Shown: positions 1,662 to 29,402 of the stretch, piece by piece
Layout of the letters: every line of letters begins with the position of its first letter
How positions within the stretch are numbered: the first letter of the stretch is position 1
From: a virus
Virus record (IMG/VR): IMGVR_UViG_3300007512_000142
Coordinates: 1 to 30,837 of that record
DNA length: 30,837 bases
Strand: one strand, 5' to 3'
Notes under the pieces: generated by a model
Seen by the model: only the letters and a program-made list of their open reading frames with translations
Told to the model about the DNA's origin: nothing
Databases searched by the model: none
Program-made: the position numbers and the translations under genes

Positions 1662-4600
1662 ATGACCGAAATCAGAAAGTGGCTCGATGAGTACGAGGAT
1701 ATGGCAGGGCCCATCCCCCGACAGGGCGCAGACCGTAGTCACCGCCAAAACATCATGACCGCAATCCTAGAGGACTTCTCAGACCAACTTCGCGGACTTC
1801 GGCTTAAGACGATTAGTGAGATCCTTGAAGACTTCCCTCCGGATTCTATAAAGGGAGTAGCGGCCACTCTGGGCCTGTCTCCCATGCAGTCTATCCCATC
1901 TGAGAGATGGGGAATCTACGCGAGAGACCTAATAAGAAATACATTAGGGGAGGTGAGTGATGGGGGCTTCCGTCTCGCCAATCGACTGATGGGGGTGTTC
2001 CAGGTTGCTCCTAACGAACTGGAAGGGTTCGCTCAATGGACGAGGAAAAACTTTCCAGAGGTTTTAGAGCTTCCCGCGATGCGGGCTTCTACCAACTTAT
2101 TCCCCGAAGTGACTCCATTCGAGCAGAGGATAGAAGGGATCCGAGAGAGGTCTAATAAGCCCAGAGCAGAGGGGGGCTTCTTTAATGATCCAAAGAGCAT
2201 ACTAGAGCACACTGACTTTACTCAAAATATTCCGGCAGACGAGCTTTGGGGCCAACAAGATCTCCTCCGCTCACAGGTAGAGTATTCGAATGAGGTCACG
2301 AACGCTTGGGCCCAACACGCCGACCCGAGTGCTGTGAGGTCAAATCGCTATATCCACTGGATGAGCGACCCTGACGGCGGGAATGAAGAGTTCCTCCGAC
2401 GGGGCCTCCAAGGAATACAGCAGGGAGAGATCAATGCGATGGTCTACCCCGAGGGGGCCCCCCTAAATCTATTCGAGGGATCGCCTTTCGCGAGAAGCGG
2501 GTTTGGAATTATCGTAGAAGGGGATGTCCGATATATCTCTAATGAAGACGCATTCTCTTTCCCCACGGGGAGCGATCATTCGAGACAACGCACGGGCCTT
2601 TCGGGAGATCGAAGATATCTCCCAAGTAGTCGCTATGCAACGACCCGCCACCTCGCTTTGACTGCCGCCGACGCAGTACACAGATCTGGAAACATGAATG
2701 AGGCTTCTATTGGGAATTTTCGGATAAAAGCTTTTGTGCTGCCATCCCCTCACCCACGCTCATCGCAGCGCATAAAAAGGCTGACACAAGAACTCCAAAG
2801 TCGGTTTGGGGAGGATGTCCCTCTTGTACAGATTAACGCCGATGATCCAAGCCGGGTAGTACCCGCATACGAAAGGACAGACTTCGGAAAGCCCGTCGTC
2901 CGTCGAGTGGGAGACCCGCGAACCCCACAAGACAGAGCCAGGGCTAAGACCAACCGTGCTCGATTGGCCACGGCACAAGAGGCTTCCACGGGGTCTTCCC
3001 AAATTGCGCCACTCGCGACGGGCCCAGAAGAAGGCTTGGGAGGACAGAAGAAACTCTTCCTCCCTCACGAGGCTCCCTATCGAGAGCCCCCACCCCCCCT
3101 TACCTCTTCCTACTCTCCTTCCGTCATCGCCGCCCTCGATGAAAAAGATGAGGCAATGAGAAATGCCCAACATCCTGATCAGTTACGTTTGCCCCTCGAC
3201 GAGGCGGCGCAGAGAGCTAACGACCCCTCTACCCGAAGGGTTTTTGGGTGGACTGCCGCTGATGTTATTGATGTCTATGACGACAAACTCTCCCCCGTGG
3301 AGAAAAAGAACCTCATGGAAGCCTGGTCTAGCGGGACTCGAGAAGATATCGCACGGGCACTGCGGTCGGCCGACATCCAAGATTGGGAAGACACGATGTT
3401 TTGGGAGGACGCCCCATCGTTGGGAGAGAAGATAGCTGATGGAACCACCCACAGCCGGCTAGACAACAGAGTTCCCCACGGGAGCACAAGCGGAACGACT
3501 CCTCTGGAGGATCGTCAGCGAATTCCCCGAAACGCAGCGGGGCAAGGCGAACTATGGCGAAACTATACCCACACTCCACAAGGGCCTCCCATAGCCCCCA
3601 CAACAGGACGAGTGTCCTCGCCAGAAACTCCCGATCCCAACCAACTAGACCTCTTCCCAGAGGAAGCTGAAGCTCGAAGGGAATTTGAGGATATCCTAAA
3701 TGGTGTCGTAGGTAAGGAGGTTGATGATGAGAGGCGTCGGCTGATAGCAGAGGGGATTGATCCACACCATCTCGAGCCTGATCTGGCCACGTTCAGGCAC
3801 AACCAGAGAGAATTATATAGGGCAAGATTCAACGAAGAGCTTGCAGAGAAAAGGGCGGCAGAAAGGGAAGCAGAAGGACTCATAAGGAGAGATGCCGCAG
3901 CAGCCAGAAGACAAGAAGCGGCGAATAGGGCATTACGAAATGCCACCCAACAAAACCTCTTTGCTCCCGGAGAAGCGGGAGGAGCGTTCGGCCCGAGAAA
4001 CCCCCAAGAACAGGGGTCATCGCGGATGCCTTCTGACGCTCCCGGGGATTTTATTCCTCCGGGCAGTAGGAGAAGGAATCTCGCGACGGAGACACAAGTC
4101 AGGGAATTGAGCCCCCAAGAATCCGCAAACCTCCGCGCAGAAGCCACCCAAGCCCACAGGGCAGGCAATTGGCAGAAAGCTTGGAGAGCGTTGGGGATTC
4201 TAGGTGACGTCGCGTTCGCCGCACAACTCGGATACAACATTCATGATCAAGGAAGTGTAGGAAGAGGCCTCATGGAAACGGGGGCCCAAGAAGTCGAGGG
4301 AATGGGTACTGTCCTTCGGGCCCCTGCTACGGGAGCGGAGATGCTTACTGGCCAACGCCCCGAAATGGGAACAGGACTAGGTAACCTTTCCGCGCTCGGA
4401 GACGCAGCTATCTCCTCTGTCGGGGCGCACCGGAGAGAGCAGGCGAGGGCGGCGAACCGAGGATTCGCAGAAAGAGATTATCAGTCTCGCATAGATGCTG
4501 GACTAGATCCGCAAGAGTCGAGATCGGCTGCGCAAGCAGCGACAGCAAGAAGAGCAGAATCATTGCAACGAGGAGGAACTCCTGTTAGCATGGAACCTAG

Positions 4601-4709
4601 GGCCGTTCCCGGACGAAGCGTTCTTGATGCTATGAATGCAGGGAATCAAACAACGAGCCTTCCAGACCGAGAAACTCTACTCAGGAATCTAGGAATAAGG
4701 AGACAGTAA
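1662..4709 (+). CDS. 1015-aa multidomain protein with repeated QxxLF motifs
   Basis: A large protein of unknown function just upstream of the terminase region. Residues about 1-190 are helical. Residues about 225-400 form a compact alpha/beta-looking domain with H232, W233, a 'FLRRGL' stretch at 244-249 and a 'GFGIIVEGDVRYISNEDAFS' stretch near 280-300. Residues about 430-820 are low-complexity, rich in Pro, Arg and Glu, and dotted with short motifs: QKKLF (462-466), QLRLPL (507-512), QLDLF (661-665) and QQNLF (763-767). QLDLF equals the consensus by which bacterial proteins bind the DnaN sliding clamp. The C-terminus is Ala/Gly-rich and helical. Long phage proteins of this mixed style are often virion or polyvalent proteins. 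ATG at 1662 follows AGGAG. The stop overlaps the next start as TAATG. Function is not assigned. Confidence 0.85.
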   Translation: MTEIRKWLDEYEDMAGPIPRQGADRSHRQNIMTAILEDFSDQLRGLRLKTISEILEDFPPDSIKGVAATLGLSPMQSIPSERWGIYARDLIRNTLGEVSDGGFRLANRLMGVFQVAPNELEGFAQWTRKNFPEVLELPAMRASTNLFPEVTPFEQRIEGIRERSNKPRAEGGFFNDPKSILEHTDFTQNIPADELWGQQDLLRSQVEYSNEVTNAWAQHADPSAVRSNRYIHWMSDPDGGNEEFLRRGLQGIQQGEINAMVYPEGAPLNLFEGSPFARSGFGIIVEGDVRYISNEDAFSFPTGSDHSRQRTGLSGDRRYLPSSRYATTRHLALTAADAVHRSGNMNEASIGNFRIKAFVLPSPHPRSSQRIKRLTQELQSRFGEDVPLVQINADDPSRVVPAYERTDFGKPVVRRVGDPRTPQDRARAKTNRARLATAQEASTGSSQIAPLATGPEEGLGGQKKLFLPHEAPYREPPPPLTSSYSPSVIAALDEKDEAMRNAQHPDQLRLPLDEAAQRANDPSTRRVFGWTAADVIDVYDDKLSPVEKKNLMEAWSSGTREDIARALRSADIQDWEDTMFWEDAPSLGEKIADGTTHSRLDNRVPHGSTSGTTPLEDRQRIPRNAAGQGELWRNYTHTPQGPPIAPTTGRVSSPETPDPNQLDLFPEEAEARREFEDILNGVVGKEVDDERRRLIAEGIDPHHLEPDLATFRHNQRELYRARFNEELAEKRAAEREAEGLIRRDAAAARRQEAANRALRNATQQNLFAPGEAGGAFGPRNPQEQGSSRMPSDAPGDFIPPGSRRRNLATETQVRELSPQESANLRAEATQAHRAGNWQKAWRALGILGDVAFAAQLGYNIHDQGSVGRGLMETGAQEVEGMGTVLRAPATGAEMLTGQRPEMGTGLGNLSALGDAAISSVGAHRREQARAANRGFAERDYQSRIDAGLDPQESRSAAQAATARRAESLQRGGTPVSMEPRAVPGRSVLDAMNAGNQTTSLPDRETLLRNLGIRRQ

Positions 4710-19076: not shown

Positions 19077-19673
19077 ATGTCTGGATGGGATAGAGCGGCA
19101 GGAACAGCCTCGGGAGCAGCGAAAGGCGCGGCCGTAGGATCGGCGTTTGGGCCCCTCGGAATAGCTATCGGCGGAGCTTTAGGAGGGGCAAGGGGTTTCT
19201 TGGGCTCTGAAAGCACCTCCTCGTACAATGACGCTCTTCGGAGATCCACGGAAGCTATGGAAGAGGGCGAACTTGGTTTTTCTGAAAACCAGAAAGATCG
19301 AATGGCGGCCACTCAACAAAGGGCAGCGGGCCAGCAGATCGGTGCGATGCAATCAGATATCGCACAACAGGGCCTACAAGGAGTCGGTGCGGGACAACAA
19401 GCTAAAATGATGTCGGCTTTGGCGGAATCAGCGGCAGAAGCCGGAGCCCAAGGGCGGAGAGCGGCAGAAGAGCAGAGCGCAATGTTGGCAGAATCCCGAA
19501 GAAGGGAGACAATGGACAGGTTAAATGAACAACGGATAGAATCCGAATCCATGATAGATAGCGTATTCTCGATGCTGGGGGATCCTTCCCTTGGTGCGGC
19601 GGGAGCGGCAGGACAATACAATACGGAAAATATGTTCAAAACGGCCGCCCAGAAAGCAAAAGTGACGACATAG
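19077..19673 (+). CDS. Internal virion protein with glycine zipper (T7 gp14-like position)
   Basis: A 198-aa protein with an N-terminal Gly/Ala zipper at residues 9-43 (SGAAKGAAVGSAFGPLGIAI, then GGALGGARG), a membrane-active helix type used by ejected phage proteins, followed by long Ala/Gln/Glu-rich helices with coiled-coil character to the C-terminus. Length and layout match the first core/ejection protein of T7-like phages (gp14, 196 aa), which inserts into the host outer membrane. Two larger proteins follow as in T7. AAGGAG precedes the ATG. The assignment is by position and composition; host membrane insertion is inferred. Confidence 0.68.
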   Translation: MSGWDRAAGTASGAAKGAAVGSAFGPLGIAIGGALGGARGFLGSESTSSYNDALRRSTEAMEEGELGFSENQKDRMAATQQRAAGQQIGAMQSDIAQQGLQGVGAGQQAKMMSALAESAAEAGAQGRRAAEEQSAMLAESRRRETMDRLNEQRIESESMIDSVFSMLGDPSLGAAGAAGQYNTENMFKTAAQKAKVTT

Positions 19674-19682
19674 GGAGATAAC

Positions 19683-22136
19683 ATGGCGGACAGGGATAGA
19701 AATCAGAGACTCTGGGAGGCAATAGCGCCCGAAATGGACGACTTCGCCGCTGTTCAGCGACGGACAAACGCGCTCGGCGTTGGCGGGCAGGCGGCCCGAG
19801 ACGAGTACGGGTACTCTCCTGAGCCGATAGATGAGCGAGCGGCAAGAGAGTCCGCCACGGGTTTTTTAATTGAACTCGCAAAGCTTGAAAATGACCAGTC
19901 ATCTCCGATAGACGTTTTAGAACCCATCCTAGATCTTTATGGAACCCTCGGGCAGGCGGAAGCGCAGGGGATGAGTTCTGTGCAGAGAGAAAAGGCGGCG
20001 ATGGCGACCGGACTGGTTCGGGACATTGAACAGCGCCTTCGAGATGTTCAGGCGGTGAGAATAGGAACTATTCCAGCCTCCGCTTATGGGGGAGACACGG
20101 GACTAGATGCGATAGTCGACATGGTAAACAGTGGCCGCGAGTGGGGGGCATCTTTTGATGCGGCCAGGGAAACTATTGCGGGGGCGGCTCCTCAAAATCA
20201 AATGGCCATGCTTCTCCATGTCTCCTCTTCGACCGGAATCTCCCCCGAAGATCTCGTCTTCCAATGGCAGCAAAGCGGCTCGTCTGGCGGGAGGGGCAGA
20301 CTCGGCACGGGGTTTGAACGCATGGCCCAGTCTGTAACGGCCTCCTATGTACAAGAAAGGCAACTCGAACAACAACTATTAGGCGCAGTGGGCGAGATGG
20401 ATCGGATCTTTGGCGGCCTGGGCCCTGTTGGGCGGAGGGGAGAAAGCTTCCTTTTAGCCGTTACGCAGAATCTTTTCGGGGAAGGCGGGGTCAACATGCA
20501 GGGCCTCCAAGAACTCGCGGGCCTGAGCCCGAGGGGGCTTGACGAAATTGAGGCAAATCCCAGAACCCTAACTAATACTCAGCGGGGCCGCTCCGTTGTA
20601 GAGGATCTCCTCGATTTCAATCAAGTAGAGCCTTGGCAAACAGAGCAGCAAGCCCGAGCGGCTTTTGTGAATCATCCGGGATACCGTCCTTGGGCAGAGG
20701 CTCACGGGTTCGATCCGGACTCTCCAGAGACTTTTAGGTTTGCTGTTGACGAATATAACAGAAGACAAACCCACGAGGGCCGGTCGACGGCCGTCAGCCA
20801 AGCGTTCGAAACTCTCAATGGTATTCGGGCATACCCAACTATCAGGGATAAGGCGTGGGCCCAGTATATTAGAATGAGGCATCCGCAGTTATACGCGGAG
20901 GAAGAAGCTCGACGCGCTGGGGAAGATACTTCGTGGGAAGCAGGAGGAGAACCAAGCTGGGAATCCCACCCAGATGATGAAGCAAGGGGCGGCTGGGCCC
21001 CCAGAGAGGGAGAAAGGGCCCCTATCGAGGCCGCAAATCTCGATGACATGAGAGAGCAGGCCACTACTCGACAGTTTACGAATGAGGCCGAAGATGGATT
21101 CGCTCGCTATACCCTCAACCCAGAGACGGGGAATATTGACTGGGTTTCAAAGGATGGGGGCCAACAAGGTTCAATCCCGCCAACAATGAAGGGCCCATAT
21201 TGGGCAGTCCTTGGGGGAGTTTTCGGGGAAGATATCCCTCCTGGGATGGAGGCCGCCGTCGCACAAGCCCACCAACAGAATGTTGTGGAGCCCGCACAAG
21301 AAGAAGCGCCTATAGATTATGGCGCAGATCCTGATTCAATATACGACGCTCATGGGCTCCCCTCTGGGGGGTTAGACGAGCTTCCCGCTGAAGGGGTTCC
21401 TGAAACACCGCAGGGGCCGGGAGTTGAGTATTTACAGAATCAGCCGGAAGGCTCAGAGGCTCACACCCTGCCCGATGGGACTCCTTTCTTCCTCCGAGAA
21501 GGAGGAGGAGGGGCAGTCCGGAGACAAGAATGGTTCGACATGGAAGGAAACCGGGTTAGGCACCCCGCCCAGATCCAAGAGATGGAAGCGGCGGTAGAGG
21601 AGGCAAGAGCCCCCGGGCCTGTAGCGGGGCCTCCGGAGGAGGACGCAGAATATGCCGGCGTCAATCTTGGTGACTATACTCCTCCTACAGGAAGGGAGGG
21701 GACTCCTCAAGAAGGCGGAGGCGCTGTGCCATATACTCCGCCTGAAGAAGAGGAGGAGGAGGAGGAAGAGGTCGCCGAGGAAGTCTCAGAAGAACAAGAG
21801 ACTGTGGGAGATCCCACTGAGGAAGAGGAAGCGGCGGAAAGGGCGGAAGCAGTAGAGCCTCAAAGGCCCGAGCAGCCCGCAGGATTCCGGCCCCAAGCCC
21901 AGGCAGAACTCCCTAGAGTTCAGAGCCCCGTTGGGACAACAAACTTCGAGGCGCAGGCACACAATATTACCCCAACTTCTCCGAGTGCTTTAGTTGCGGC
22001 AAATCCAAGCCTCTCAATGGCAGACGGAGCGGCGGGCAAAATGGACTCTCCACGGGCAGGATTTAGCCAGACTAGGCAGAACGCTCTCTTAGAGAGTTTT
22101 CGCCAGGGACAAAACCCTCCCGGAGGAGTGGCATAA
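19683..22136 (+). CDS. Internal virion protein, 817 aa (T7 gp15-like position)
   Basis: The second of three putative ejection proteins. The N-terminal 450 residues are helical and Ala/Glu/Arg-rich. Residues about 455-640 are more variable, with short beta pieces and Pro. Residues about 686-730 contain a run of Glu coded by a GAG/GAA repeat, followed by a Pro/Ala-rich tail. I find no lysozyme or transglycosylase motif. T7 gp15 is 747 aa, so size and place agree, but there is no recognisable similarity. The stop TAA is directly followed by the ATG of the giant gene, which uses GGAGGAG inside this gene's 3' end. It could form part of a DNA-ejection tube. Confidence 0.68.
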   Translation: MADRDRNQRLWEAIAPEMDDFAAVQRRTNALGVGGQAARDEYGYSPEPIDERAARESATGFLIELAKLENDQSSPIDVLEPILDLYGTLGQAEAQGMSSVQREKAAMATGLVRDIEQRLRDVQAVRIGTIPASAYGGDTGLDAIVDMVNSGREWGASFDAARETIAGAAPQNQMAMLLHVSSSTGISPEDLVFQWQQSGSSGGRGRLGTGFERMAQSVTASYVQERQLEQQLLGAVGEMDRIFGGLGPVGRRGESFLLAVTQNLFGEGGVNMQGLQELAGLSPRGLDEIEANPRTLTNTQRGRSVVEDLLDFNQVEPWQTEQQARAAFVNHPGYRPWAEAHGFDPDSPETFRFAVDEYNRRQTHEGRSTAVSQAFETLNGIRAYPTIRDKAWAQYIRMRHPQLYAEEEARRAGEDTSWEAGGEPSWESHPDDEARGGWAPREGERAPIEAANLDDMREQATTRQFTNEAEDGFARYTLNPETGNIDWVSKDGGQQGSIPPTMKGPYWAVLGGVFGEDIPPGMEAAVAQAHQQNVVEPAQEEAPIDYGADPDSIYDAHGLPSGGLDELPAEGVPETPQGPGVEYLQNQPEGSEAHTLPDGTPFFLREGGGGAVRRQEWFDMEGNRVRHPAQIQEMEAAVEEARAPGPVAGPPEEDAEYAGVNLGDYTPPTGREGTPQEGGGAVPYTPPEEEEEEEEEVAEEVSEEQETVGDPTEEEEAAERAEAVEPQRPEQPAGFRPQAQAELPRVQSPVGTTNFEAQAHNITPTSPSALVAANPSLSMADGAAGKMDSPRAGFSQTRQNALLESFRQGQNPPGGVA
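21744..21770 (+). repeat. GAG/GAA triplet tract coding poly-Glu
   Basis: An imperfect run of GAG and GAA codons in the 817-aa gene gives a stretch of consecutive Glu. The tract is in frame and therefore a protein feature as well as a DNA repeat. It could be length-variable by slippage in whole codons. Confidence 0.75.
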
Positions 22137-25100
22137 ATGTCGGAAGAGACCCAACCCGAGCAGACATCCCCTTTCGATTCACTCATTCAAACCCTCCAAG
22201 AGGCAGAGAGTCGAGTTGAGGCGAGCCCGTCCGTTCAGGCTTGGGGAGCCCGAGGAGCAGAAAGGCGGGGAGAAGAGCCTCCGGCTCCTTTGCCCGTTAG
22301 GACTCCCCAAGTTTTCGAGTCTCTTGTTGAGTCTGCCGCGCAGAAGAGAGAAGAGACGGCATACCGACGTTCTCCAGAACGGGCCATCTTTAGGGACTCC
22401 CCAATTGAAGGCCAAGCAGTTGATTTAAATTCGCCAACAGCACCTCCCCGGGCATCAACGGGGATGCAGATAGACTACTTATCTTCTGACGCCCCTCCCG
22501 TAGACTGGAGCCCGGAGCCCCAAGAGATCGCTCGACTTATCGAAAGTAACGCACTAACTCAGCGACATGCGGGGGATTTGGATAGAGTCTGGCAGGCGGG
22601 CAGGGCGGACGCTTATGGAAGGGGCGGAATAGGGTGGATGGCCCCCCACATTGGGCAACAACTTATTCAGGATATGTACCAAGGAGAGTCTGCGGTACAA
22701 GACCAGATAATGTCCGAGGTGCCCATTTCGAGGTTCCCCGGAGTTACAGCAGTTAATACCTATGAAATGAACGAGCAGGCCAGCGATCTCTGGTTCGCTA
22801 AAATCATGGAGGAGAGAGGACTGACTCCCCAGACGGCTACTCCGGAACAGAGAGCGGAAATCGACGAGGAGACAAGACTTCGAACCGCCAGAACAATGGC
22901 GCGAGTAATGCAGTCAGGGGGGAGACTTCTCTGGACAGACCCGCTTGATCACGACATCACCGAAGATTTGATGAATAGCGGCGTCATCGGAACAGTGTTC
23001 CGTCCGCTTAGGGCTTTAACTAGCCCAGTAAGATTTGGCGCTATGGGCAGAGGAAGATCAGATACTCCTCTAGGAAGAACTCAATTGTCCCTTTCGAGGG
23101 GACAGCTAAAGTATGAAAGCTCACTTTCTCTTATTGGTAGGATGGCCCCCTCTACTATTTTAGCCGCCTCAATGAGTACAGGGACGTCCCCTTGGAGTAG
23201 AGAATCCACAGAAGCAATCCGGGCTGGGGAGGATATCATCCTCCACGTCCCTGACATTGCGGAAGCACTCGGAGGAGAAGACCCCGGCATTGTTGCAAAA
23301 GGTGTCGCCGCTTCCCTTGTTTTAGGGATTATCCTTTTCGAACCTGACATTATAAGTCTGAGCCTTGGAACAGCAGGAATCGCAGGAAAGGGAGCGAAAG
23401 TAGCCAACGCAGCGCGTAGGATCAACAGGATAGCGAACTCAGCCAACCAGATCGCGGAAACTCTCCGAACCGGAAACATAACAATCCGAGAGGCGGCGAC
23501 CCAGCTAGAAGCCCTCGATCCCGCATTCTTCCGGGCCGTAGAACTCTCTGCCGGATCTAGGCTTAACATTTCGGGCGGAACTATTTCCCCAACTATCCAC
23601 GCAGACTTTAAAGAAGCAGAACGGCTAAGAGGGGAGGCGACCGCCCTCCGAGGAAAGGCCGAAGAAGCGCAAACGCAGTGGGAGAGGTTCGCTGCGGGAG
23701 AACACCCTGACTTTGACGTCTCTGTCTCTAGGGGATTCGCCAGTAATAAACTTGCGTTAGAGGCGGCAGAAGCTGACCACGCCGCTTCCTTAGTCGAAAC
23801 GCGAGCATTAGAGAAGGAGAAGAACGCTTTCCTAGAAGGTATTGGGTTCTCGCCGGAAGACGCCGCTCGGATTACTTCTCAAAGAGGCATCCCTGTTGAC
23901 GAGGCAGCCGCAGGTTTCCAAGAAAGAATAGCTAATCGTCTAGAGGCCCGCGCAAAAGAGTTCCGAAAAGGGAATAGGGCCGCTTTCGACCAGTATGAGA
24001 GGGCATCCACAACGCTTGCGGATCTTCTCGCTAATCTTCAGAAGCTGAGAGGCCCCCATAAGGGGGTGGAATCTCGGATGCTTACCGTGTCGGAGGCCCC
24101 ACATGGAACCGTAGCCTCCCAGAGGCTTGCCAATCACCCTACTATTGGGCAGGAAGTCTCTTTCAGAACTGAGAGAGGTGGTTGGAAAAGGGGAAGGGTC
24201 GAAGATCTAACAGTTAAAGGCCCGGAGGGGGGGAGATTCCCCTCTAGACATTCTGCGAAGAAAAGAGACGGTTTTTATGAGATCTACTTAGAGCTAACGA
24301 CAAAGGGAGGGGAGAAGGTAACTATTCTGCACCCCCTCCGGGTAACTCACGAAGAGGGAAGAGCGATTCGCATAGCGAAGAAGAACTTCCAGAATTCCCA
24401 TGCTGTGGTGTTCTCCCCCGGAGGCCCCTATACCCAGTTTCGGACATTTACAGACGCGGCAGACCAAGCCCGGGCGCTCGCCAAAAGTCTCCGACAGGGA
24501 GGAGAAGCGGCAAGCTCGCTAAAAACATACGAGAGGGCGGTTGCAAGATTAAAAGAGAGCAAGAAGGCCCTAAAAGAGGTGCGGAAAGGCACGAAGGGGA
24601 ACATAAAAACAGAGCAGGCTCTCCTTAATAAGTGGAGCAAGGCTGAGAGGGCGGCAGCAAAGAAGGAAGAAGCCGCAACAAGGGCCGCTGGCCTTCGAAA
24701 TAACTACGCTGATTCTATCTCGGATCTCGTCGAGAGCACCCGGGCTTTCCGAGCGGAAGGACTGGAGAGGATGGGGCTCGACAATCCCACACTAAAATCT
24801 TTTCTGACCTCTAAGAAACCTTGGAAGGCCGTCAGCAAACTAACAGCAGACGAGATCTCCAAGTTCGGGCACCTCTCTACGGACGCCAGTGTAGAGAAGT
24901 CATTCCGAAAGGTCATGGAAGAGAATGTCCGATTGAACCCGAAGACTCGAGAGGCGGAAGTCGATGTAGCGGGGATGGTGACAGATCTTGAGAGGATAAT
25001 AGGGAGAGACGAACTCGAAGAGCTTCTGGATATGCCCCAGTTCAGTAACTTCAAAAAGTTACTAGACGACAGCATATTCCCCTCCCAAATAACTGAGTCC

Positions 25101-28100
25101 GTGCGGGGGGGAGAGACGTACTCTGATGGGTGGCCTCTTGGATTCTCCATCTCCTCAACAGAAGTGGCGAAGGGGATAAAGGCCCACTCGGAAGACACCG
25201 ATGGCCTCATTGACTTCCTCACGAAACACCTACTCGATGAGGATTATCGGGAGATCCTCAAGCGGATCAAACCAATCCTCTCCCCAGCCGTAGAGACAGC
25301 AGTTTTGTCTAAGAAGGGGATGAAAAGCCTAGGCTTTGGGGAGGCCCGGGGAGTCACCCGTACTAGGACGCAGGACTCAAGCGATCTGATCGCGCTGGCG
25401 AGTGCCCGGTCGAAAGGCACGGGGATCGCGGCAGAGGTTGTCGTACACGAACTCCTTCATGCAGCGACCACAAGGAGATTGGTAACTGCTAAGCTTCGTA
25501 AGAACCAGGGGACGGAGATCTCAAAGGCGGGACGGGATATTTTTTATCTTTGGCAGTCCCCCAGAGTGCAGAGTGCACTACAAGAGGAACTCACTCGTTT
25601 CGAAAAACGTGCTAGAATGGGTGATACGACAGGACTCAAGTATCATCCAGGAGAGCCACTTAGTAAACTAAGTGAGTTCATTGCCTATGGAATGACCAAT
25701 CGCCAATTCCAAGATGTCCTCCAGTCGATAAAATTGCCGGATGGGAAGAATGCGTGGTCAAAATTTGTAGACACAATTCGGAGAATACTAGGCATCCCCC
25801 CGGGCGAAACGAACGCTCTGTCAGAGCTTTTCCGGGCCACGGACGACTTCATGAGCGCCTCCATCCGCGATCTCCCTGATCAGAGGGCCCTAGGGGGGCT
25901 TCCGAGGGAAGGGAGCCTTCAAGCCCCGGCTTTGCGGCGGAAGCTAGCGAAGGAGAGGAAAGAGGCGAGGGCGGAGATGAGGGCAGAGAGGGCAAAGGCG
26001 AGGGAGAGGAAAGCGGCGAGGCAGAAGGCAAAAGCCGAAAGAGGTGAAAACCCCCCACAATGGAGCAGAGAAGCAGAGAGAAAGTTCGCGGAGGAGGCGA
26101 GAGTAAGAGAAGAGGCGCGAGCAAAGAGAAAGATACGACGAGCGGCGGCGGCGGCGGCGCGGCGGCGGAAAGCGGCGAGAGGGGCTAAGCCTGAGTTCAA
26201 GCTTACTCCTCCGGATCCGGAATATAAGCCGCCCCCAATACCTCGGGCGGTCGAGCCAAAGCCGAAAGAGGGGCCACTCCCAGGACAGGGGAGTTTCGAC
26301 TTTGATGCTCCGAAACCCACCGCAAAAGTCGAGCCTGAGCCTTCTGGGCCGAAGCCGCCGGGAGACGATCAACCTCCTCCGAGTGGCGATGGTGGCGGTG
26401 GTTCTGGGAGAGATTTCATAGACGGTCACGTTCGCATTCCCTATGCCGAGTGGGGTGGGATTGCTCAGGAAGTCCGGACTCTAATCTCCTTCGGGGAGAG
26501 GATAAGGGTCTTTAATAAATCTTCGGCTTGGGGTCGGGCAATCTTCGAAGCCCAGAAAGATCTGAACCTAAGAAGTACGAAGAGGGGAGAGAAGTTTGGG
26601 CCCTTCCGCCACCCGAAATATCTAACAGATAGGATTCGCCTTTTCCTTAGACAGAAAGGGGGAATGTTTGATAGCACACAAACGCGAGTTGGTGAGGTCG
26701 GGAAGGAGCTTGAAACCGCTATAATTGAAACTGAGCGCGTTTTCTCTCGGGCCCAGCTTGAGTTAGCAGAGGTCATTACCATAAAAGAACTTGGAGATAC
26801 GCCCACTGAACGGATGATTAACTTCTTAGACGGAGTAAATCCTGTCCCGATGAAAGAGGGATTAAGCCGCTGGGACGCTGTTACAGGAAACGGATCGGCT
26901 TTCCAGAAGATGAAAATGCAGCTTCTGGCGGACACTAGGCTGGATCCTCGTCTAAAAGAGGCACGGGCCGCAGAGGTCGAGGGCCATCGAGCTAGGCTAC
27001 AGGCTGAGATAGATAAAATAAAAAGGAGAATAGGGAAAGAAAACGACGGACTCTCTGGTGATGAGCTGGATGACCTCCTCAAGGGGCTTTCAGACGATGT
27101 TCTCGCTCTAGTCAGTAGAGGCGAAAGGGCAACAGATGGAATACCGAAGGCTCTTGTCTCCCTTTCTCGGGCTTGGATGAGGAGCTATGCGGGGAAGCCT
27201 ATCCAAGCGGACATCGGAATTATCCTCGCGGGCATAACCCGAGGGGCCCTAGAAAAAGCAGAGACTTACAAAGAGTTCTCAGATTTAGTTCGAAGAGGAA
27301 CATATTCTATCCTCTCGGAGACGACCCCTAATGTGGAGAAGGCGCACTCGATGTCGGCCTCCGCTATTATGCTCTCTGCAACTCTGGGCGAGTTCGGACA
27401 TCGAATAGACAAAGTAATAATGGGGAAAATAGGCGCAGAAGAGGCGGCAGACATTAACCGCATCTTCATGGGAGAATTTGGGGACATTAAAGACCTAGAC
27501 ACCGCTTTAGAAAATCTCAATAAGCTCGGGATGCCCCTAAGTCAGAAGGAAATCAAGACATTCAGAGACTTAGGCTCCGACCTAAGAGGGATTGGATCTG
27601 TCCAGAAGACTCTCGTAGAGCTAGGAACTCGAGAGGGGGGATCCTCAATGGTTCCCAAGGCCCTCATAGAGCAGATAGAGAAGAAAGCAGGGAACATCGT
27701 AAAAGATCTCGAAGCCCTTAATGTTATTGCGAGGGTTACTCCGAACGTCGATAAGGCTCTTGGAACTTACATGAGCCTCTGGCGCGGATCGGCTGTTACA
27801 GGGCTCATCGTCCCAAACCCAAGATACTGGACGAACAATATGTTTGGGGACTTCTCCCAGATGTGGATGCAGGAGGGAGCGGGTTTCGCTGCCCGTCGGA
27901 GCCTCATCAATTTCCCGACAAACATTCCCTTCTATGGGCGGAAGCTCCAAGAAAAGTCGCTTTTCATGGCGGAGAGAGTTGGAGGAAAATCGGGATCTAC
28001 TGAGGCGCTGCCCGGAATGATTGAGGTCATGATCAATCCTCACCTCGGGCGGGTCTTTAAGGGAGAGGCGGGAGAGCTTGTCACGAAGAATGGGGATGTG

Positions 28101-29402
28101 ATTACCTATGACATGCTCCGTAAGTGGGCAGTGGAAGATGGAATCTCAGAGTCCTTTATCCGTGAAGAGCTTTTCCAAATGTATGACCGCGTGGGCGAAA
28201 CATGGGGTGGGGATACATATAAATGGTGGCAGAAACAGATAGCAGACCACGCTAATCTTGTTCAGGAAAGGCAGCGAGTTGGTATGTATGCTGATCTTAT
28301 CCAACGAGGAGTCCCCCGGGCAGAGGCCGCGAAGAGGACGAAAAGAGCGTTATACGATTGGTCTCATGGAATTGCAGAGTGGGAAGCCCGCTACATTGCG
28401 CGAAATATTCCTTTCTGGAGATTCTGGAGGCTCTCCATAGCCCAGATTGCGGACGCGGTTATGGAGCCCCTCGTCCGTCCTACAGGAGAAATCTTTAAGA
28501 AGGCGATGTTGGGGAACACAAAACTGGCGAGACTGAGGCAACAGCTACATATTCTGCCTTCTCTCCCTGAGTTCATATACCAAGACAATGTTGATGTAGG
28601 AATCACTACAAATGAGAGGGTAAACCTCATTGCTACTCAACTTTACCCAGACTGGATGGAAACCCGCGCCAAACTAGGTGTCCTCCCAATGGATCCAATC
28701 AGGAGACAATTCTGGCAGGAGACTTATGACAGGCAATACTCACACGAAGCCATCCTACTCCCTACGATAACGGCACTCGACTCGGCTGATATGATGATCG
28801 GGCTAACCTCTGGTCTTGGTTTCTGTCTCGGGCAGATCTTTGAAGCAATGGGAATGAAAGGCCCGAGTAGAAGAGTTGGGGACGCGGAAGCTCGATTCTT
28901 CGAGCCAATCTTAGGATCTATGAACCCGATTATCGAGCCCTTCGCGCGGCCAGCCCTTGAGAAATTAGGGGCAGATCTTGACTACTCCTCAGAAGGAGAT
29001 TTTAGATACCTTAGTCCGACGGACGAGGAGGTTTTCCAGCAATTGAGTAGGCTTCCAATGGTGAGGTCTCAAATGCAGTTCGACCATGAGAGGGGCCAAT
29101 GGAAAGTTCCGAACTCAGTTTACACAACGTATCGGTTACTTCCTGTTCTTTCTACTCAGGTGGGCGGCTGGGCAGGTGCCATCAATAACCCAGACTGGCA
29201 ACGAGGAACAACGGCGGGAACACTCATGATGCTCCGAAAACTTACAAGATTCGGAGATGTAAAACCCTTTGATATGAATCAGAGCCTTCAGGGGAGGGTT
29301 CGAGATATCCAAGACGAGTGGCGGAATTTCACGGCCGAAATGGGAGACATCCGAGCCCCAATGACGCATGGAAGAGCGCGGGGGAGAACTGATAGAGATT
29401 AG
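22137..29402 (+). CDS. Giant 2421-aa internal virion/polyvalent protein with metallopeptidase motif
   Basis: The largest gene, at the T7 gp16-like position. In order: residues 1-380 helical; a hydrophobic Gly/Ala segment at 384-417 (GVAASLVLGIILFEPDII); coiled-coil-like helices at about 490-650; a small beta domain at 665-750; more helices; an HExxH zinc-peptidase motif at 1104-1108 (EVVVHELLHAAT) with a likely third ligand E1180 in LSEFIAYGM; a charged Arg/Glu/Ala helix at 1262-1350; a Pro/Gly linker to about 1425; then a C-terminal region of about 1000 residues containing LGTYMSLWRG (1875), NNMFGDF (1900-1906) and IARNIPFWRFWRLS (about 2086). The peptidase and its following helices match the style of large polyvalent proteins in phages. 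No lytic transglycosylase or RNA polymerase motif is seen. It may be ejected with the DNA and cleave a host target. Confidence 0.85.
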   Translation: MSEETQPEQTSPFDSLIQTLQEAESRVEASPSVQAWGARGAERRGEEPPAPLPVRTPQVFESLVESAAQKREETAYRRSPERAIFRDSPIEGQAVDLNSPTAPPRASTGMQIDYLSSDAPPVDWSPEPQEIARLIESNALTQRHAGDLDRVWQAGRADAYGRGGIGWMAPHIGQQLIQDMYQGESAVQDQIMSEVPISRFPGVTAVNTYEMNEQASDLWFAKIMEERGLTPQTATPEQRAEIDEETRLRTARTMARVMQSGGRLLWTDPLDHDITEDLMNSGVIGTVFRPLRALTSPVRFGAMGRGRSDTPLGRTQLSLSRGQLKYESSLSLIGRMAPSTILAASMSTGTSPWSRESTEAIRAGEDIILHVPDIAEALGGEDPGIVAKGVAASLVLGIILFEPDIISLSLGTAGIAGKGAKVANAARRINRIANSANQIAETLRTGNITIREAATQLEALDPAFFRAVELSAGSRLNISGGTISPTIHADFKEAERLRGEATALRGKAEEAQTQWERFAAGEHPDFDVSVSRGFASNKLALEAAEADHAASLVETRALEKEKNAFLEGIGFSPEDAARITSQRGIPVDEAAAGFQERIANRLEARAKEFRKGNRAAFDQYERASTTLADLLANLQKLRGPHKGVESRMLTVSEAPHGTVASQRLANHPTIGQEVSFRTERGGWKRGRVEDLTVKGPEGGRFPSRHSAKKRDGFYEIYLELTTKGGEKVTILHPLRVTHEEGRAIRIAKKNFQNSHAVVFSPGGPYTQFRTFTDAADQARALAKSLRQGGEAASSLKTYERAVARLKESKKALKEVRKGTKGNIKTEQALLNKWSKAERAAAKKEEAATRAAGLRNNYADSISDLVESTRAFRAEGLERMGLDNPTLKSFLTSKKPWKAVSKLTADEISKFGHLSTDASVEKSFRKVMEENVRLNPKTREAEVDVAGMVTDLERIIGRDELEELLDMPQFSNFKKLLDDSIFPSQITESVRGGETYSDGWPLGFSISSTEVAKGIKAHSEDTDGLIDFLTKHLLDEDYREILKRIKPILSPAVETAVLSKKGMKSLGFGEARGVTRTRTQDSSDLIALASARSKGTGIAAEVVVHELLHAATTRRLVTAKLRKNQGTEISKAGRDIFYLWQSPRVQSALQEELTRFEKRARMGDTTGLKYHPGEPLSKLSEFIAYGMTNRQFQDVLQSIKLPDGKNAWSKFVDTIRRILGIPPGETNALSELFRATDDFMSASIRDLPDQRALGGLPREGSLQAPALRRKLAKERKEARAEMRAERAKARERKAARQKAKAERGENPPQWSREAERKFAEEARVREEARAKRKIRRAAAAAARRRKAARGAKPEFKLTPPDPEYKPPPIPRAVEPKPKEGPLPGQGSFDFDAPKPTAKVEPEPSGPKPPGDDQPPPSGDGGGGSGRDFIDGHVRIPYAEWGGIAQEVRTLISFGERIRVFNKSSAWGRAIFEAQKDLNLRSTKRGEKFGPFRHPKYLTDRIRLFLRQKGGMFDSTQTRVGEVGKELETAIIETERVFSRAQLELAEVITIKELGDTPTERMINFLDGVNPVPMKEGLSRWDAVTGNGSAFQKMKMQLLADTRLDPRLKEARAAEVEGHRARLQAEIDKIKRRIGKENDGLSGDELDDLLKGLSDDVLALVSRGERATDGIPKALVSLSRAWMRSYAGKPIQADIGIILAGITRGALEKAETYKEFSDLVRRGTYSILSETTPNVEKAHSMSASAIMLSATLGEFGHRIDKVIMGKIGAEEAADINRIFMGEFGDIKDLDTALENLNKLGMPLSQKEIKTFRDLGSDLRGIGSVQKTLVELGTREGGSSMVPKALIEQIEKKAGNIVKDLEALNVIARVTPNVDKALGTYMSLWRGSAVTGLIVPNPRYWTNNMFGDFSQMWMQEGAGFAARRSLINFPTNIPFYGRKLQEKSLFMAERVGGKSGSTEALPGMIEVMINPHLGRVFKGEAGELVTKNGDVITYDMLRKWAVEDGISESFIREELFQMYDRVGETWGGDTYKWWQKQIADHANLVQERQRVGMYADLIQRGVPRAEAAKRTKRALYDWSHGIAEWEARYIARNIPFWRFWRLSIAQIADAVMEPLVRPTGEIFKKAMLGNTKLARLRQQLHILPSLPEFIYQDNVDVGITTNERVNLIATQLYPDWMETRAKLGVLPMDPIRRQFWQETYDRQYSHEAILLPTITALDSADMMIGLTSGLGFCLGQIFEAMGMKGPSRRVGDAEARFFEPILGSMNPIIEPFARPALEKLGADLDYSSEGDFRYLSPTDEEVFQQLSRLPMVRSQMQFDHERGQWKVPNSVYTTYRLLPVLSTQVGGWAGAINNPDWQRGTTAGTLMMLRKLTRFGDVKPFDMNQSLQGRVRDIQDEWRNFTAEMGDIRAPMTHGRARGRTDRD
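26142..26168 (+). repeat. GCG/GGC triplet tract in the giant gene
   Basis: A run of GCG triplets codes for consecutive Ala and then Arg residues near residues 1336-1344 of the giant protein. It sits in a strongly purine-biased, low-complexity stretch (about 25930-26190) that codes for a long charged helix. Codon slippage or secondary structure is possible here. Confidence 0.7.

Follow-up and report, generated by a model that had tools for sequence, protein, structure and literature searches.

A zincin-like metallopeptidase cassette inserted into the giant ejection-position protein of a virus lineage

No domain is commoner in phage polyvalent proteins than the zincin peptidase, which may either process the phage's own proteins or attack the host. 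The polyvalent zincin-like metallopeptidase (MPTase) class was reported in 2017, with a helix bearing HExxH, a glutamate on a later helix and a three-stranded sheet, together with its presence in the N4 virion RNA polymerase (vRNAP) and its promiscuous linkage to ADP-ribosyltransferase (ART), lysozyme and other effector domains (Iyer et al., PMC5512222). N4-like vRNAPs are giant proteins ejected into the host. In the N4 structure paper (PMC12633501) the domain goes by the name C1 and its HExxH is described as conserved; proteolysis by the domain is not reported in the portions of the N4 literature considered here (PMC12633501). The same MPTase domain is carried by phiKMV gp37, an internal core protein equivalent to T7 gp16 (PDB 9sfn chain G), and this peptidase goes unmentioned in the available text of PMC5512222 and of an ejection-protein review (PMC8954989). 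Limnohabitans phage YIMV22061 and Xanthomonas phage DoCa9 also have the MPTase in the internal virion protein at the gp16 position, there together with an N-terminal SLT transglycosylase.

The window, as we call the whole stretch of DNA analysed, is a linear 30.8-kb virus record (IMGVR_UViG_3300007512_000142; 30,837 nucleotides), probably a fragment, in which the terminase, portal and major capsid protein genes were recognised weakly (PHROGs). Three clustered genes lie 3' of the head-tail genes, and the last and largest of them, as for a T7 gp16-type protein, encodes P0001 (Table 1), with a good ribosome-binding site (GGAGGAG, 22122-22128) 8 nt 5' of its ATG. The sizes follow the ejection-gene pattern given in the review (PMC8954989, available text), and sister phages keep the gene order, in agreement with the third-gene position proposed in an earlier note on this DNA. 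phiKMV gp37 resembles P0001 in being third in a trio and in having a long C-terminal part after the MPTase. It differs in its length of 1337 aa, in lacking detectable homology outside the domain, and in having a neighbour, gp36, with a lysozyme domain.

Table 1. Coordinates of the features discussed; positions are those of the window unless a contig is named.
Feature	Position	Strand	Basis or remark
198-aa Gly/Ala-rich protein, gp14 position	19077..19673	+	syntenic in sister phages
817-aa protein, gp15 position	19683..22136	+	syntenic in sister phages
P0001, 2421-aa ejection-position protein, third gene of trio	22137..29402	+	complete open ORF
N-terminal backbone half, aa 1-974	22137..25058	+	also in sisters that lack the peptidase; 41% identical to L220
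Strongly hydrophobic segment, aa 382-416	23280..23384	+	hydropathy scan; only strong candidate membrane segment
Inserted cassette (MPTase + linker), aa ~975-1435, edges +/- ~10 aa	25059..26441	+	missing in L220, L189-L196 and others
Zincin-like MPTase domain, aa 993-1251	25113..25889	+	HMM from profile A2, AlphaFold2 model, VIA-align 2
HELLH, aa 1104-1108	25446..25460	+	putative zinc ligands H1104 and H1108; putative general base E1105
E1180, putative third zinc ligand, on following helix	25674..25676	+	
NAWSKFVDTIRRILGIP, aa 1205-1221, conserved C-terminal helix of MPTase family	25749..25799	+	
Low-complexity linker, aa 1252-1435, Lys/Arg/Ala-rich then Pro-/Gly-rich	25890..26441	+	composition; probably disordered
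C-terminal backbone half, aa 1436-2421, mostly helical	26442..29399	+	lineage-conserved; 57% to L220
Pre-terminase effector loci	L010:2-2323, L122:1165-4206, L165:6291-7814, L019:3135-4604, L021:9446-10909		

We call P0001 an ejection protein on account of its gene order and architecture, because its backbone has no detectable sequence homology to gp16-type proteins of the T7 or phiKMV kind or to N4 proteins, and its C-terminal half gave no profile match to the C-terminal parts of phiKMV gp37 or the Limnohabitans protein. A model of that half showed weak structural matches to N4 gp50 (Z 3.6-3.7) and to the T7 ejectosome (7k5c, Z 3.0), and we claim no kinship with N4 gp50 from the former. The portal and the 817-aa protein found no match among named phages. 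Close to its C-terminus the 817-aa protein carries a long acidic stretch rich in Glu, and the adjacent gene product, P0001, has a strongly basic linker. The only host hint for the lineage comes from L220, the nearest complete homologue, which lies on a 57-kb contig (JAERSQ010000243.1) binned with a Proteobacteria MAG.

The earlier note had singled out HELLH, E1180 and the segment NAWSKFVDTIRRILGIP, all of which are present as described, E1180 within LSEFIAYGMT, and had read them as a metallopeptidase module. HELLH is the sole HExxH in P0001. From the composition of the protein 0.035 such motifs are expected and 3.3% of shuffled copies contain one, so the motif by itself is suggestive at most; it is homology that places it far beyond chance. 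A tblastn search of named phages matched 132 records, and among the matches listed all were confined to aa ~1008-1244 of P0001. These were internal virion proteins of phiKMV-like, Xanthomonas and Limnohabitans phages, N4-like vRNAPs and a DarB-like antirestriction protein. Pairwise comparisons gave E-values of 2e-9 to 1e-15; phiKMV gp37 is 29% identical over aa 1078-1241 and has HEAVH with a downstream glutamate. The equivalents of H1104, E1105, H1108, E1180, G1185, T1187 and Q1192 are invariant in all seven sequences aligned, and E1180 and NAWSKFVDTIRRILGIP fall within a conserved block, E-[FLV]-x-x-[YW]-G-[ML]-T-[ND]...W-x-[RK]-F-V-x-x-[IL]-R-x-[IL]-LG. When viral contigs were scanned for the motif E[LF][VIL][ATS][YW]G[LM]T[ND], 300 relatives emerged. 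HExxH, which lies outside that motif, is kept in 47/47 aligned segments taken from 45 of these loci, the conservation in homologues that the earlier note had asked about, while E1180 is part of the search motif for these 47 and its invariance is independent only in the tblastn set of seven. Overall identity of the relatives to the window's MPTase domain is only 21-31%.

A profile search of PDB sequences returned 9sfn_G, an internal virion protein of 1337 aa, as is phiKMV gp37 (E 1e-57), followed by the ejection protein gp48 (8vb2, 3e-7) and the N4 vRNAP (1e-4). No Pfam model matched P0001. In contrast to the N4-like vRNAPs, a T7-like RNA polymerase domain was not found in it by Pfam, which did match the vRNAP of Vibrio phage phi 1; a match to phrog_2206, "virion RNA polymerase", was rejected as polymerase evidence, as it covers the MPTase region only (aa 797-1335). 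A tree of MPTase domains gave no supported placement for the window copy. A search of P0001 for a further MPTase copy, decayed ones included, found none. Two copies do occur in some giant phage proteins, namely L011 (direct tandem, aa 739-1004 and 1026-1308), L009, L060 and L004, the vRNAP of Vibrio phage phi 1 (aa 1849-2066 and 2180-2297).

An AlphaFold2 model of aa 985-1265, run with 46 sequences (pLDDT 82, pTM 0.80), predicts a zincin core. A helix (model residues 51-64) and three strands (68-73, 88-92 and 99-104) all precede the HExxH helix (115-134), on which HELLH lies, and E1180 is placed on a later helix (194-203). These core elements are like those of the MPTases of Iyer et al.; what distinguishes P0001 is that its module is a separable insertion in one family member. 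With VIA-align 2 the top match was the C1 domain of N4 gp50 (aa 2124-2375; aligned 2124-2366, Z 9.3, 3.6 Å, 183 residues), and the next, at Z 5-6, were the zincins lethal factor, SPRTN and PPEP. Among the matches in a viral structure library are internal core proteins and vRNAPs of phages. The fold was visible only by these two means, plain Foldseek against the PDB giving no significant match. Sequence homology, predicted fold and HExxH invariance uphold the metallopeptidase reading, so that both refuting conditions named in the earlier note, a model that lacks a zincin fold and homologues that do not keep HExxH, were decided in its favour, and the assignment of aa ~993-1251 to a zincin MPTase of the polyvalent-protein type with all four expected catalytic residues is well supported by sequence and model. 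The domain would be expected to bind zinc and to be proteolytically active.

Sister phages were gathered via the portal and their whole records searched (n=36; the compared records are uncultivated contigs). MPTase profile A2 was found in one of them; the other 35 lack an MPTase of this type, which is how the absence is to be read, because the profile misses very divergent zincins such as that of L181. P0001 itself was matched in 24/36 records, on both sides of the MPTase, the exception being G030, in which the sole match is the MPTase of a separate gene. Most of the MPTase-less sisters are also without HExxH. L220 aligns with aa 1-979 (41%) and 1445-2417 (57%) and has no HExxH; its junction measures 19 aa, as against 465 aa in the window. 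L168 aligns with aa 114-964 and 1442-2404, with 32 aa between, and L189 with aa 112-991 and 1442-2419, with 5 aa between; L170 and L190 likewise lack the cassette, and L188 is about as close as L220 (60%), its contig stopping before the insertion site. As judged from these alignments, the MPTase with its linker (aa ~975-1435) is an insertion relative to the closest relatives. Its DNA composition shows no sign of recent import (GC 0.529 for the MPTase, 0.523 for the window).

The peptidase-less sister proteins are ~2000 aa long and are flanked by the same gene order as in the window. The great length of P0001 is therefore a lineage trait and not the peptidase's: the earlier note was right on its 2421 aa, far more than T7 gp16, and the length stems from a backbone of ~2 kilo-residues that peptidase-less sisters have too. 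Nine homologues (L176, L177, L207, L210, L212, L214, L215, L216 and L217) exceed the usual ~2000 aa by 400-1400 aa without this MPTase type. Their extra parts may be other cargo; HEIGH occurs at aa 1602 of L216 and HEHAH at aa 1521 of L210.

The C-terminal half was used for a tree of 44 rows, of which 42 are labelled. The MPTase is present in four of these 42 homologues, namely the window's, L181, L211 and L218, which are scattered and require a minimum of four changes. Peptidase-less neighbours accompany them in the starred clades that hold the window's protein (99), L181 with L184 (97) and L211 with L202 (100); L218 is a long branch of unsure placement. The module of L211 occupies aa 1314-1626, against 27 aa at that place in L202, and that of L181, a minus-strand ORF, occupies aa 1372-1717, against 11 aa in L184. 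Both insertion sites differ from the window's. The zincin-like insertion of L181 is very divergent (HEALH...FAEI; hhalign probability 92.7, E 4e-7). The portal tree unites the window with G001-G005 (99), all five without an MPTase in the record; G001 and G004 are short fragments. Change counts alone cannot separate gain from loss; we prefer gain, because the peptidase-less state is far commoner and surrounds each case, and hence favour the view that equivalent MPTase modules were gained separately in several members of the P0001 family.

The module also occurs outside this protein. Three relatives with 51-52% terminase identity (L010, L019 and L021) have a separate MPTase gene immediately upstream of the terminase, fused in L010 to an ART-PolyVal domain (4e-23), an ADP-ribosyltransferase. 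The same position holds GNAT and ART-PolyVal in L122 and ART-PolyVal in L165. The pre-terminase locus thus appears as a second polyvalent-effector site of the lineage, with ART-PolyVal, GNAT or MPTase depending on the phage; in the window it is occupied by a 1015-aa protein (1662-4709) without a Pfam or PHROG match. Since the MPTase is found at two loci across relatives, the module would move between them, as an effector does.

It had further been supposed that the peptidase stands in the place of a transglycosylase. That supposition is not supported, as some relatives, including the YIMV22061 and DoCa9 proteins, have both domains in one protein, and as the peptidase-less sisters of the window's lineage are without a detectable transglycosylase too. 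Pfam searches of P0001, its 817-aa neighbour, L168 and the C-terminal halves of 26 relatives found no transglycosylase. The N-terminal transglycosylase of gp16-type proteins is described as variable, able to move to gp15 and not universal in the available text of the review (PMC8954989). The absence of a transglycosylase is a trait of the lineage, unrelated to the peptidase.

What, then, would the peptidase do? Because sisters exist without it, the cassette is not generally needed for assembly or ejection, and this dispensability lowers the case for an obligate maturation role as well as for a structural one. The invariant catalytic residues favour an enzyme, and an enzyme in an ejection-like position suggests a peptidase that is brought into the host and does its work inside it. 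A host target is preferred over one of the phage's own because sister proteins manage without the domain. We therefore propose, with moderate confidence, that P0001 is a giant ejection-position protein with an inserted, portable zincin cassette, which is packaged and ejected and whose peptidase cleaves a host protein early in infection. P0001 would be packaged and leave the capsid with the DNA; the peptidase would refold on the host side, tethered by the flexible linker; zinc would be held by H1104, H1108 and E1180, while E1105 would serve as general base; and early cleavage of a host protein would benefit the phage. The cassette is probably an accessory, host-directed and optional cargo rather than part of the ejection machine.

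The MPTase might instead cut the polypeptide that carries it, perhaps within the adjoining linker, or neighbouring proteins, either ahead of packaging or once ejection has taken place, easing passage through a narrow tail or the release of parts. Auto-processing was proposed for polyvalent MPTases by Iyer et al., citing cleavage of P1 DdrB (PMC5512222, available text), and the cassette brings with it a long, probably disordered linker, a natural place for cleavage. Yet sister proteins of the same lineage and gene order lack both peptidase and linker, the N4 vRNAP is packaged unprocessed (PMC5512222, available text), the domain is a separate protein in L010, L019 and L021, and without the cassette no known effector domain remains to be released. 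We regard self-processing as rather unlikely; processing of the ejection proteins, which the earlier note had entertained, is weakened as a necessary step by the lack of the MPTase in nearly all homologues of the ejection-position protein. A zincin fold retained for the folding or assembly of the ejection apparatus, its proteolysis unimportant, would accord with the N4 region containing the domain being needed for encapsidation (cited in the available text of PMC5512222) and with the contact of C1 with the polymerase in N4 (PMC12633501, available text). The catalytic residues are invariant despite the low overall identity, however, and the domain is missing from most backbone homologues, so that a structural role is quite improbable. 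Nor do we give much credence to a late-expressed intracellular polyvalent protein outside the virion, a reading that draws on the backbone's lack of sequence homology to known ejection proteins, as P0001 closes a 198/817/2421-aa set of conserved order past the capsid and tail genes and phiKMV gp37, annotated as structural and itself part of a solved structure entry, has the same domain in a homologous position.

What is new here is a clean presence/absence series of the MPTase within one protein family. Returning to the host-directed cargo, we can tentatively envision the ejection-position protein as a delivery chassis, with effectors repeatedly plugged between its conserved halves against particular hosts and interchangeable with the pre-terminase locus. 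Otherwise collinear proteins with or without the peptidase amount to a natural deletion experiment, which indicates that ejection can in general do without the domain, and the series makes its role testable by inactivating a single cassette. Ejection proteins would thereby be suggested as natural carriers of injected enzymes.
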